Positions 22,131 to 31,220 of a stretch of DNA of 36,760 nt are shown here, piece by piece (the first letter of the stretch is position 1; each line of letters starts with the position of its first letter). Origin of the DNA: Hyphomicrobiales bacterium. GTDB taxonomy: Bacteria; Pseudomonadota; Alphaproteobacteria; Rhizobiales; Xanthobacteraceae. The notes beneath the pieces are model-generated. The model searched no databases. It was not told the DNA's origin and saw only the letters and a list, made by a program, of their open reading frames with translations. The stretch covers positions 1 through 36,760 of the forward strand of contig JAKFUP010000060.1 of assembly GCA_021732625.1 (NCBI GenBank). The letters are read 5' to 3'. The position numbers were made by a program, and so were the translations under genes.

Positions 22131-22559
22131 TCAGGTAATGCAGCGACTCGAATCAAGCAGTTTGGCAACTTCCGTGAGAGCGCTCACCACAGGTTCACAC
22201 GCAACAATCCTGCGCGGAGACGTCTTGGAGTCGAGTTTGGCAGGTCTTTGAGACGACGGACTGACGCTTTCTCCCAAGCGGTCGGCGGGCACGCGGATCA
22301 ACACAGAGGTGTGAGCGAGTTGATCGACATGAATCGATACGGTCCGCAGAACTTCTTTCGTCGGCACCACGACCACGTCGCGATTCTGTTTGCTTTCGCG
22401 ATTGATCTGCGGTGCCGATCCTGGTGCAAATAAAGCGGCGTCTCCATACCGCGCTCCAAACGTGTCGAGGTCATTTCCCGAAGCAACTTGGAGATGAGCC
22501 GCGCTGAGCACCAGCGTGGCGGTGGCAACTCCTAGAATTCCTGAAATCCATCGAGCCAT
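22131..22559 (-). CDS. Small secreted protein of unknown function
   Basis: This 142-residue protein has a signal peptide (MARWISGILGVATATLVLSA, then AHLQVASG) and no recognisable domain. It has two cysteines near the C-terminus (VACEP and SSRCIT) and a hydrophilic middle. The frame extends to 22625, but ATG 22559 has GAGG upstream, places the signal peptide first and lies about 30 bases behind the start predicted for a perfect EcfG-type promoter at 22599-22623. It converges on the holin-like gene with only 12 bases between stops. I do not recognise the family. Confidence 0.72.
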   Translation of the reverse strand: MARWISGILGVATATLVLSAAHLQVASGNDLDTFGARYGDAALFAPGSAPQINRESKQNRDVVVVPTKEVLRTVSIHVDQLAHTSVLIRVPADRLGESVSPSSQRPAKLDSKTSPRRIVACEPVVSALTEVAKLLDSSRCIT

Positions 22560-22598
22560 GATCGGCCTCAATTTGTTCGCGGTTGTTTCTACACAATC

Positions 22599-22623
22599 AA
22601 CGGCGAGCGGAACGCAATGTTCC
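22599..22623 (-). promoter_or_regulatory. EcfG-type general stress promoter for the secreted protein gene
   Basis: The minus strand reads GGAAC (22623-22619), 16 bases, CGTT (22602-22599), a perfect consensus match directed at the gene starting at 22559. Confidence 0.83.
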
Positions 22624-22667
22624 ACGAAACAGCTACCGGCAAACCCGCCAAAATATGCCGACGCTAA

Positions 22668-22692
22668 GGAACAAATTCGCTCGAACCCTGTT
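22668..22692 (+). promoter_or_regulatory. EcfG-like promoter for the candidate small RNA
   Basis: GGAAC (22668-22672) and TGTT (22689-22692) are separated by 16 bases, one change from consensus and the same variant as at 19864-19888. Initiation is expected near 22699-22701, exactly at the base of the first hairpin of the candidate RNA. Confidence 0.5.
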
Positions 22693-22698
22693 GCCTGT

Positions 22699-22776
22699 GC
22701 AGCCGGTTATTCCCCCTGCCCCAATTGACCGGCTATGTGGGGCGTGACCGTGGTGATGCCGGTCGCGCCCCATTTT
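22699..22776 (+). ncRNA. Candidate stress-induced small RNA with C-rich loop
   Basis: This is a proposed RNA of about 77 bases in the non-coding gap between the secreted protein gene and phyR. Hairpin 1 pairs AGCCGGT (22701-22707) with ACCGGCT (22728-22734) around a 20-base loop containing TCCCCCTGCCCC, which could bind purine-rich ribosome sites of mRNAs. Hairpin 2 (22738-22750 with 22760-22772) is a strong terminator followed by TTTTCTTT. No credible protein is encoded on this strand. The GCCCCA of loop 1 could also pair with TGGGGC of hairpin 2, so alternative folds are possible. A C-rich loop and stress-sigma control recall GsrN of Caulobacter; this comparison is inference. Confidence 0.52.
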
Positions 22777-22780
22777 CTTT
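22738..22780 (+). terminator. Rho-independent terminator of the candidate small RNA
   Basis: TGGGGCGTGACCG (22738-22750) pairs with CGGTCGCGCCCCA (22760-22772), with a single G-T wobble over 13 bases, around a nine-base loop and followed by TTTTCTTT. It has a T-run only in the plus direction, and no plus-strand protein gene ends upstream within 600 bases. Confidence 0.82.
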
Positions 22781-22856
22781 GCATCAGTTGAACTTCATTC
22801 CGGTTTGACGAAGAAGCGCTCTCACAGTTCAACTGCTCGGGCGGCTCGCAAAGAAA

Positions 22857-22879
22857 AACCGGGCGAACTGCCCGGTTTT
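22857..22879. terminator. Terminator of phyR
   Basis: ACCGGGC and GCCCGGT pair around GAACT; on the minus strand the hairpin is followed by TTTTTC. It lies about 30 bases past the phyR stop. The plus strand also has TTTTC, so it may work both ways. Confidence 0.85.
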
Positions 22880-22908: not shown

Positions 22909-23712
22909 TTATGCAGCTGCGTTTGGTGTTCTCGATCGCGAGTTGCGCTGAAAGAACAATGCCTGGCTGGCAACCGCAGACACCATCGCTGGCTGGAAAG
23001 GTTTCGAGATCAGGAAGGCCGGTTCCGGACGCTCGCCTGTCAGAAAGCGCTCCGGATAAGCAGTGATGAAAACAACTGGAACTTCGAACGTCTTGAGCAG
23101 CTCGTTGACCGCATCGAGACCCGAACTGCCGTCGGCAAGCTGGATATCGGCCAGAATCAAGCCGGGCTTTTTCTTGCCCGCCATGGCGACCGCATCCGAA
23201 TGGGTGCGTGCCACGCCAATGACGTTATGACCGAGATTCTTGACCAGGCTTTCCAGATCCATCGCGATAAACGTTTCGTCTTCGATGATGAGCACATCGG
23301 TTGCAATCTCGGCTGCCATCTCTCTGCCGGCCATATCGGCGAATTGACGCACCTCGGCGGCGCTCTTGCCAAGAATGAAGCCTACCTCTTCCTCAGCGAA
23401 GCCTTCCAGCGAGAGCAGAAGAAAAACCTGGCGCGGCAGCGGCGTGACATTGGACAATCTTCGCTCCGACGCAACCTGTTCAAAGGGTGCGTCGGCACTT
23501 TCGTTGACCGAGACCGAATTCCATATCCGGGCGAATATCTTGAACAGCCCTGCACGCGGCCCATGCTGCTCGTCCAGCAGCGCCGGATCTTCCAGCAGAG
23601 CTTCCAGCATCGCTGCGACATAGGCGTCTCCAGACGCCTGATTTCCTGTCAAAGCACGGGCATAGCGCCGCAACAGCGGCAAGTGTTCGGCAACAACCTG
23701 TGATCGAGACAT
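22909..23712 (-). CDS. phyR: General stress response anti-anti-sigma regulator PhyR
   Basis: This 267-residue response regulator controls the alphaproteobacterial general stress response. The N-terminal half (about 1-135) mimics an ECF sigma factor (LPLLRRYARALTGN..., LPRQVFLLLSLEGFAEEEVGFILG). The C-terminal half is a receiver domain with acidic pocket IEDET and phospho-acceptor Asp189 in ILADIQLADGSSG. When phosphorylated, PhyR sequesters NepR and frees EcfG. The frame runs to 23859, but ATG 23712 follows GGAGTGGGG and gives the standard start. It is transcribed divergently from nepR-ecfG behind an EcfG-type promoter, implying positive feedback. Confidence 0.96.
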   Translation of the reverse strand: MSRSQVVAEHLPLLRRYARALTGNQASGDAYVAAMLEALLEDPALLDEQHGPRAGLFKIFARIWNSVSVNESADAPFEQVASERRLSNVTPLPRQVFLLLSLEGFAEEEVGFILGKSAAEVRQFADMAGREMAAEIATDVLIIEDETFIAMDLESLVKNLGHNVIGVARTHSDAVAMAGKKKPGLILADIQLADGSSGLDAVNELLKTFEVPVVFITAYPERFLTGERPEPAFLISKPFQPAMVSAVASQALFFQRNSRSRTPNAAA

Positions 23713-23790
23713 CCCCACTCCATGCATTTGGACCGCAGCCCACCGGGCTTTGCCCCATGGTTTCTGCGCGTCCCCTATTATTGTCATGAT

Positions 23791-23815
23791 GACGCCCCTA
23801 GGGGACAAAAGTTCC
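23791..23815 (-). promoter_or_regulatory. EcfG-type promoter of phyR
   Basis: The minus strand reads GGAAC (23815-23811), 16 bases, CGTC (23794-23791). The last base departs from CGTT. Initiation near 23784 would give a leader of about 70 bases before ATG 23712. Autoregulation of phyR by EcfG is known in related bacteria. Confidence 0.72.
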
Positions 23816-23835
23816 ATCGTATCGGAACTCATATT

Positions 23836-23860
23836 GGAACTTATCAGGTGGACCGGCATT
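23836..23860 (+). promoter_or_regulatory. Possible EcfG-type promoter of nepR-ecfG
   Basis: GGAAC (23836-23840) and CATT (23857-23860) are 16 bases apart; the -10 differs at one position from CGTT. It is the best candidate for the nepR-ecfG operon, though about 110 bases of leader would follow and a second promoter nearer nepR is possible. Confidence 0.4.
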
Positions 23861-23980: not shown

Positions 23981-24199
23981 ATGAAAGACAATAAACCACA
24001 AATCGCCAAGTCGGGCGGGGCAAGTAAGCCGGGCGGATTGAATTCTGAAATCCAGTCAAGGATCGGGCATCAGCTCCGGGCGATGTACGACGACGTGGTC
24101 CGCCAGGGCGTTCCGGACCGTTTTGCGGATCTGATCCGGAAGCTCGACACCCCGGATGGTGGTGCGGGGACACCGGTCAAAAACGATGGGAGGGACTGA
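23981..24199 (+). CDS. nepR: Anti-sigma factor NepR
   Basis: This is a 72-residue anti-sigma factor that holds EcfG inactive in unstressed cells and is captured by phosphorylated PhyR. The conserved two-helix core is clear: LNSEIQSRIGHQLRAMYDDV followed by VPDRFADLIRKLD. The ends are charged and probably disordered. Its TGA stop overlaps the ATG of ecfG by one base, which couples production of the sigma factor to its inhibitor. Confidence 0.95.
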   Translation: MKDNKPQIAKSGGASKPGGLNSEIQSRIGHQLRAMYDDVVRQGVPDRFADLIRKLDTPDGGAGTPVKNDGRD

Positions 24200-24744
24200 T
24201 GCCTCTCACAAATTCCCTGCGGGACGACATTCTCGCAACCGTACCGAGTCTTCGCGCCTTCGCGATGTCTCTGAGTGGCAACAGTGATCGCGCGGACGAT
24301 CTGGTTCAGGAAACGCTACTTCGGGCACTTGCCAATATCGACTCGTTCCAACCCGGCTCCAATCTGCCGGCGTGGCTGTTTACGATTTTGCGCAATCTAT
24401 TTCGATCCGATTACCGCAAGAGGCGACGTGAGGTTGAGGATGCAGACGGCAGCTATGCCGAGACATTGAAGTCTCAGCCGAACCAGACCGCGCACCTTGA
24501 ATTCGAAGAATTCCGCGCGGCTCTCGAGAAGCTACCTCAGGATCAACGTGAAGCCCTCATCCTCGTGGGTGCGTCCGGATTTTCGTATGAAGATGCTGCC
24601 GCGATCTGCGGATGCGCCGTCGGAACGATCAAAAGCCGCGTCAATCGTGCCCGCTCGAAGTTGAGCACCATGCTGTCCGTCGATAACGCGGAAGACTTCG
24701 GGCCTGACGATACGGTGCGCGCGGTTATTGGTGGAGGACGATAG
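24199..24744 (+). CDS. ecfG: General stress ECF sigma factor EcfG
   Basis: This 181-residue ECF sigma factor (EcfG group) directs RNA polymerase to GGAAC-N16-CGTT promoters. Region 2 spans about residues 10-80 (DDLVQETLLRALANIDSF, then AWLFTILRNLFRSDYRKRRR). Region 4 spans about 105-160, with LPQDQREALILVGASGFSYEDAA and a helix-turn-helix ending KSRVNRARSKL. It starts directly at the nepR stop with GGGAGGG upstream. Several matching promoters in the surrounding 10 kb make this cluster a likely part of its own regulon. Confidence 0.95.
   Translation: MPLTNSLRDDILATVPSLRAFAMSLSGNSDRADDLVQETLLRALANIDSFQPGSNLPAWLFTILRNLFRSDYRKRRREVEDADGSYAETLKSQPNQTAHLEFEEFRAALEKLPQDQREALILVGASGFSYEDAAAICGCAVGTIKSRVNRARSKLSTMLSVDNAEDFGPDDTVRAVIGGGR

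Positions 24745-29507: not shown

Positions 29508-31220
<1,713 letters not shown>

Follow-up and report, generated by a model that had tools for sequence, protein, structure and literature searches.

The window analysed here is a stretch of 36,760 nt from a Hyphomicrobiales bacterium of the family Xanthobacteraceae (contig JAKFUP010000060.1), whose genome comprises 3.77 Mb. It contains a putative small RNA (sRNA) gene, to the right of which follow phyR, then ecfG and then a gene for an HWE kinase (Table 1). The listed open reading frame of phyR probably starts too early, judging from the homologs, most of which align from residue 31-50; nepR, which is absent from the list of open reading frames, should be located just before ecfG according to position and to tblastn matches in relatives. 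On the other side, the RNA is flanked by a small, poorly conserved gene; at 38 of 41 loci a homolog of it, likewise divergent, is situated no more than 500 nt from the RNA. The true start of this small gene is probably later than listed because a GGAAC-N16-CGTT motif (22623-22599) falls within its listed 5' part, and upstream of its homologs a GGAAC-N15/18-NGT(T/C) motif was detected in 14 of 40 cases, compared with 2.2% of shuffles. The window additionally harbors a 5' ureB sRNA, which is an element separate from the sRNA next to phyR; the same Rfam family (RF02514) was also recognized at the edge of another phyR locus (L105).

Table 1. Features at the phyR locus and elsewhere in the window (window coordinates)
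Feature	Position	Strand	Basis or remark
Small gene divergent from the RNA	22131-22625	-	0 Pfam families; taken for a secreted protein gene in the preliminary description
EcfG-type promoter GGAAC-N16-TGTT	22668-22692	+	Motif match
Predicted small RNA	22699-22777	+	Extent of covariance model match; 5' end inferred
5' hairpin, 8 bp (22702-22709 with 22726-22733)	22702-22733	+	Covariation
C-rich loop CCCCCTGCCCC, candidate pairing seed	22712-22722	+	Conserved loop sequence
Terminator hairpin, 13 bp (22738-22750 with 22760-22772)	22738-22772	+	Covariation
Terminator loop TGGTGATGC, 9 nt	22751-22759	+	Within terminator hairpin
T-rich terminator tail TTTTCTTTG	22773-22781	+	Sequence
Hairpin AACCGGGCGAACTGCCCGGTTTT, candidate terminator of phyR	22857-22879		By eye; T-run on phyR strand too; similar hairpin in sister genome G001
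phyR, convergent with the RNA	22909-23859	-	Pfam PhyR_sigma2, PhyR_sigma-like, Response_reg
ecfG	24199-24744	+	Pfam Sigma70_r2, Sigma70_r4_2
5' ureB sRNA (Rfam RF02514)	30779-31065	+	135.9 bits

Structure and conservation of the RNA

From its promoter through its terminator the sRNA gene covers positions 22668-22781 of the plus strand. A preliminary description, made from the letters of the window alone, had pointed to a C-rich loop and to a 13-bp terminator hairpin with a T-run, and both are indeed present at this site, with both stems covarying among relatives; the whole loop of the 5' hairpin comprises 16 nt (22710-22725, TTCCCCCTGCCCCAAT). The RNA from 22697 to 22782 is predicted to adopt a two-hairpin fold (-43.2 kcal/mol, z -4.76, with none of 200 shuffles folding equally well). 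Most of this signal stems from the terminator, which reaches a z of -5.61 alone, and a z of -0.89, equalled or bettered by 36 of 200 shuffles, was obtained for a fragment truncated within the first stem (22704-22737). The terminator is absent from the list produced by a simple terminator scan, probably because its 9-nt loop exceeds the limit of 8 nt set in that scan.

When the window was aligned with a sister genome of the same genus (G001), 78 of 79 positions of the RNA were identical, compared with 24 of 42 and 60 of 134 positions in the flanks and 21 of 31 in the promoter segment. BLAST searches of 61 genomes yielded matches with E values no higher than 8e-9 in the genome of the window and in G001, G024, G025, G006 and G026, and in the last four of these the matches are confined to the RNA; among 57 BLAST places, 24 short matches (L007-L030) were dropped as chance. 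A set of 52 loci was obtained from 54 model matches by removing a reverse-strand artefact (L005, E 0.046) and an ordinary copy (L070, 9303-9380). Second copies were noted as well: the one in G197 (L297, 4164-4231) is recognizable by its terminator hairpin alone, and the one in G116 (L070, 10437-10513) represents the whole RNA without an upstream GGAAC.

A first alignment of 18 sequences found by BLAST contained double changes in 7 of 23 pairs. In a MAFFT alignment of 50 related sequences, 95.4% of 1049 cells were paired (86.8% in shuffles), and changes on both sides were found in 15 of 21 pairs and in 139 cells (8.5 and 40.5 in shuffles, respectively), a count that leans towards the structure, as most of the aligned sequences were gathered with a model already holding it. 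None of 500 shuffles reached any of the five values computed, and sliding the structure along the alignment left only 25-49% of the cells paired, with at most 24 double changes. The terminator stem (double changes in 10 of 13 pairs, with 97.7% of cells paired) and the 5' hairpin (5 of 8 pairs, 91.7% of cells) both contribute, although the innermost pair of the latter is broken in 26 of the 50 sequences. In an alignment of 34 sequences that includes the outer genera (A5), 15 of 20 pairs and 103 cells showed double changes, compared with 32.9 cells in shuffles; it was derived from 39 matches by leaving out three artefacts (one in L109) and two further rows, the rows named as left out being L116, L137 and L109, and L152 was added. 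This covariation indicates that both stems of the sRNA are maintained by selection.

The loops are conserved in sequence. The C-rich loop reads CCCCTGCCC in 42 of the 50 sequences and follows a looser C-rich pattern in 49, and the terminator loop region contains GGTGATGCC in 40 and GTGATGCC in 46; several outer genera have C-rich loops resembling CCCCCTCCCC together with different terminator loops. The preliminary description had named covariation of the stems and conservation of the C-rich loop as features to look for in relatives, and both were found. The site can be regarded as a real RNA gene because the RNA is far better conserved than its flanks, both stems covary, and a GGAAC box is nearly fixed upstream of it (see below).

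Distribution and linkage to phyR

In Bradyrhizobium, the genus of G024, the RNA was detected by BLAST in 191 of 195 sampled genomes (E <= 1e-5), and shape and loop of the C-rich-loop sRNA are kept in Bradyrhizobium, Rhodopseudomonas and their relatives. At the family level, covariance model R1 matched 97 of 296 genomes and 13 of 47 genera (E <= 0.001); model R3, which was partly built from genera in which it was then scored, matched 130 of 244 genomes and 28 of 41 genera (E <= 0.01; raw matches, not inspected singly). The stretch searched in one genome of a carrier genus (G019, L148) contained no match. Model R2, applied to 37 loci (36 phyR-anchored genomes, mostly of other genera, and G739), gave 13 matches at E < 0.05. 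With the exception of G739, all of them (12 of 13) are located within phyR stretches and show GGAAC at about the expected distance, and six of these 12 also have CGTT after another 16 or 17 nt; L161, which is among the 12, belongs to a genus already represented in the model. Two additional loci, L152 (E 0.27) and L169 (E 0.12), are similar in look to the R2 matches.

Beyond the family, matches were few. Model R2 matched 17 of 347 genomes of the order, of which 16 belong to the family, and the remaining one (G739) has no phyR in its stretch. Model R3 matched 17 of 249 genomes, 11 of them in the family, including a weak match that is not at phyR (G022), and six outside it at E 0.013-0.045; these six were not accepted as copies of the RNA: GGAAC is missing from the 62 nt preceding each of them, and the match at L295 represents a terminator that follows phyR immediately and on the same strand. 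In the class, R3 matched 3 of 193 genomes, namely the window's own and two others, which were rejected because neither site has a C-rich loop together with a fitting promoter: L315 is located after an ECF-sigma-like gene and has no GGAAC, and L314 lacks a C-rich loop, and its GGAAC is oddly spaced. A phyR-anchored locus outside the family (L164 in G051) that combines promoter, C-rich loop and terminator (E 0.0085) is a fair candidate for a non-family copy, and L176, flagged by a script searching for promoter plus terminator, is a possible further one.

Two groups of matches deserve mention on their own. One genome of another genus (G005) contains seven R3 matches (L151, L285-L290), one beside phyR and six elsewhere; several of these copies have loops like CCCCCCAAGCCCCCC, and five of the six distant ones show GGAAC about 30-43 nt upstream, so that they possibly represent a multicopy stress-sRNA set. 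Look-alike C-loop hairpins followed by a terminator, lacking both GGAAC and a phyR gene in the stretch, were seen at L291, L293 and L298 (from two other families and G362) and possibly constitute another C-loop sRNA family.

The linkage to phyR is tight in most cases. Among 41 loci (the window and 40 others), phyR is located within the stretch in 39 and is convergent with the RNA in all 39, and the distance between the two is 700 nt or less in 36 of the 41; of 12 loci compiled earlier, seven had phyR inside the stretch. Of 358 named phyR loci, some of which are on the same contigs as the G-numbered loci, the best 80 include 60 with the RNA, among them Bradyrhizobium diazoefficiens and Rhodopseudomonas palustris, and the RNA is always 3' of phyR and convergent with it; for the other 20 of these best 80 there was no match within the flank searched. 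Some Bradyrhizobium genomes show a looser linkage, with phyR being about 15 kb away from the RNA in G024.

Promoter, loop contacts and competing readings

The loose pattern GGAAC-N15/17-NGTT occurs seven times in the window (2.46 expected; 0 of 100 shuffles reach seven), and a single such site is therefore weak evidence by itself. The EcfG-like promoter GGAAC-N16-TGTT of the preliminary description is nevertheless well supported by the comparison with relatives: at 50 of 52 loci (all but L136 and the second copy in L070) a GGAAC begins 30-33 nt ahead of the RNA, and its presence is independent of the covariance models, which contain no promoter. An NGT(T/C) box follows 16 nt after GGAAC in 37 of 50 loci and 17 nt after it in at least six more. 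The box found at 16 nt is most commonly CGTC (20 of 50), followed by AGTC and CGTT (seven each); in G001 GGAAC is kept and the -10 letters are AATT. At the same loci, the strict N16 box was detected in 4 of 44 cases on the phyR side and in 9 on that of nepR (1.5% of shuffles), and a widened box, GGAAC-N16/17-CGT(T/C), in 11 and 7 of 44, respectively (0.9% of shuffles). A still looser box is present on the nepR side in 43 and on the phyR side in 18 of 44 loci, compared with 12.5% of shuffles, and GGAAC as such occurs on both sides in all 44, which is also the case for 58% of shuffled stretches; phyR of the window has, by eye, GGAAC-N16-CGTC on its own strand. EcfG is thus the likely sigma factor for the sRNA promoter, likely rather than certain because matches to the strict box are uncommon at the nepR and phyR promoters of these loci. 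Inspection by eye additionally revealed a box like ATCAnTTAACCGTGT, about 15-25 nt before GGAAC, that recurs in many of the 52 loci and may serve as a binding site or belong to the promoter of the divergent gene.

A structural switch, in which the C-rich loop pairs with the left arm of the terminator, had also been suggested. This pairing exists in the window, but in the 50 sequences it shows no excess over shuffles (74.1% of cells paired in both); slid versions reach 29-63%, and the longest complement between loop and arm averages 5.74 compared with 5.68 for the reversed loop. The switch was therefore abandoned. Searches for pairing partners in other RNAs yielded no target. The exact 11-base loop complement, GGGGCAGGGGG, was found in seven genomes at 13 sites outside the gene (1-4 per genome; 5 for the reversed pattern), and no common gene was apparent by eye among these sites. 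Nine-base complements near the locus amounted to 15 in 53 loci (12 when reversed); the sRNA gene itself accounts for three of them, and a further four fall in one and the same coding stretch of the kinase gene. Predicted pairing between katG leaders and the C-rich loop was no better than in shuffles in 10 of 10 cases (39 of 200 shuffles as low for the best one), using one loop sequence for all ten and start codons picked by script.

These data bear on two explanations that accept the RNA as real. It might be read by another ECF or by a housekeeping sigma factor, in which case the adjacency to phyR would reflect inherited linkage only. The predominance of CGTC and AGTC over CGTT in the -10 box, the rarity of the strict box at the phyR and nepR promoters of the same loci and distances to phyR of up to 15 kb would be in line with this, but the nearly invariant GGAAC at near-fixed spacing, the CGTT in 6 of 12 outer matches and the EcfG dependence of ReC64, an sRNA from the ecfG1-phyR region of Rhizobium etli (PMC3892343, as far as the available text goes), make it rather unlikely. 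Slightly less improbable, though still clearly disfavored, is that the sRNA mainly binds and titrates a protein via its C-rich and terminator loops instead of pairing with mRNA, a role compatible with two loops of conserved sequence and with the lack of a conserved complementary target in 7 genomes, 53 loci and 10 katG leaders. On the other hand, targets may pair imperfectly, and for GsrN, pairing between its C-rich loop and katG mRNA was demonstrated by compensatory mutation (PMC5869019).

Two further explanations, which would deny the existence of an sRNA, are very improbable. A terminator for phyR or for read-through, accompanied by an incidental C-rich stem, could be expected between convergent genes, where this terminator is indeed situated. 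Its T-run, however, is on the plus strand, and phyR does not need it because a candidate terminator hairpin of its own is available (Table 1). Moreover, both stems covary, the spacing between promoter and RNA is kept, and promoter, stem and terminator occur together at L127, L135 and L140, at distances of 1.5-8.3 kb from phyR. Equally hard to defend is the notion of a short protein-coding gene. By eye, an 18-codon frame starting with an ATG between the stems can be recognized in the window, but Bradyrhizobium-type sequences have TAG right after this ATG, or ACG in place of it, and substitutions track base pairing.

Proposed role and known relatives

Taken together, a conserved RNA with two covarying stems, an EcfG-type promoter and a conserved C-rich loop argue for the stand-alone sRNA gene at the phyR locus that had been postulated initially. 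We consider it probable, at roughly 0.8, that positions 22699-22777 of the plus strand encode a small regulatory RNA belonging to the output of the general stress response governed by PhyR, NepR and EcfG. According to this interpretation, stress would free EcfG, which, judging from the sequence and from the precedents of ReC64 and GsrN, would read the GGAAC-N16-NGT(T/C) promoter, and the resulting transcript of about 80 nt would end at the terminator, whose stem, like that of the 5' hairpin, is backed by covariation. By analogy with GsrN, the C-rich loop, kept open by its covarying stem, might base-pair with G-rich mRNA segments, perhaps close to ribosome sites, and thereby alter the translation or stability of these mRNAs. 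The second conserved open loop, located in the terminator, may be a further contact site. More tentatively, and in our view rather doubtful as a whole, the RNA could be a core general-stress sRNA of the entire family, inherited vertically and with two conserved single-stranded sites (the C-rich loop and, on the Bradyrhizobium-Rhodopseudomonas side, GUGGUGAUGCC) for two kinds of partners, the seven copies in G005, six of them with GGAAC, being a sibling set under one sigma factor.

The PhyR-EcfG response is reportedly important for stress survival and symbiosis of Bradyrhizobium, a finding attributed to Gourion and coworkers in 2009. Within the literature searched, the RNA arm of this response has so far consisted of one positional prediction. 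With promoter, loop and terminator defined, there is now a concrete gene to delete, probe or tag in laboratory strains; the covariance model of the sRNA could become an RNA family entry, and whether EcfG-driven C-loop sRNAs beside phyR have a common origin or arose repeatedly becomes testable.

No family of Rfam 15 was above its gathering threshold over the RNA in the window and six related loci; at E values of up to 10 the best overlap was ncS16 (16.4 bits compared with 48 needed), which covered the terminator part only. The motif CCUCCUCCC is the loop motif of anti-SD sRNAs (cuckoo RNAs, alpha-r14), and assignment to this class was rejected for the window, where the loop reads CCCCCTGCCCC. 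A sequence or structure of the sRNA next to phyR was not found in the literature searched, which consisted largely of partial texts (including PMC5869019, PMC5082802, PMC3892343 and PMC4842269). Bradyrhizobium sRNAs BjsR1-BjsR10 are, compared by description, likewise orphan sRNAs of the same genus; they are listed with RpoD, RpoN or no predicted promoters, and with homologs beyond Bradyrhizobium for BjsR1 and BjsR3 alone (PMC5082802).

ReC64 of R. etli comes close in size (88 nt), promoter (GGAAC-N16-CGTT) and region, and its 5' end was mapped by 5' RACE and its reporter activity was reduced in mutants, according to the available sections of the paper (PMC3892343); it differs in being located downstream of the kinase gene tcrY, and the likeness is one of description. 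GsrN of Caulobacter shares with the sRNA described here an EcfG/SigT-type promoter and a 5' C-rich loop (PMC5869019, available in part), again by description and not by sequence, and is set apart by its pairing with katG, a signal of which is absent for the 10 katG leaders compared here. The preliminary description had regarded the position at the phyR locus as a contrast to GsrN, which has to be corrected: as stated in the accessible text of the same study, GsrN-like genes are linked to the GSR locus in most relatives, and C. crescentus is the exception (PMC5869019). From position and an EcfG site alone, Tien et al. 2018 predicted GsrN-like genes in R. palustris and B. diazoefficiens (PMC5869019, partial text). 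The sRNA next to phyR, with its exposed C-rich loop near the 5' end, a near-consensus EcfG site in its promoter and its proximity to phyR and ecfG, is very probably the gene of this prediction, matched by description. What is already known is thus the positional prediction of 2018, to which sequence, structure, covariation and extent of the RNA are added here.
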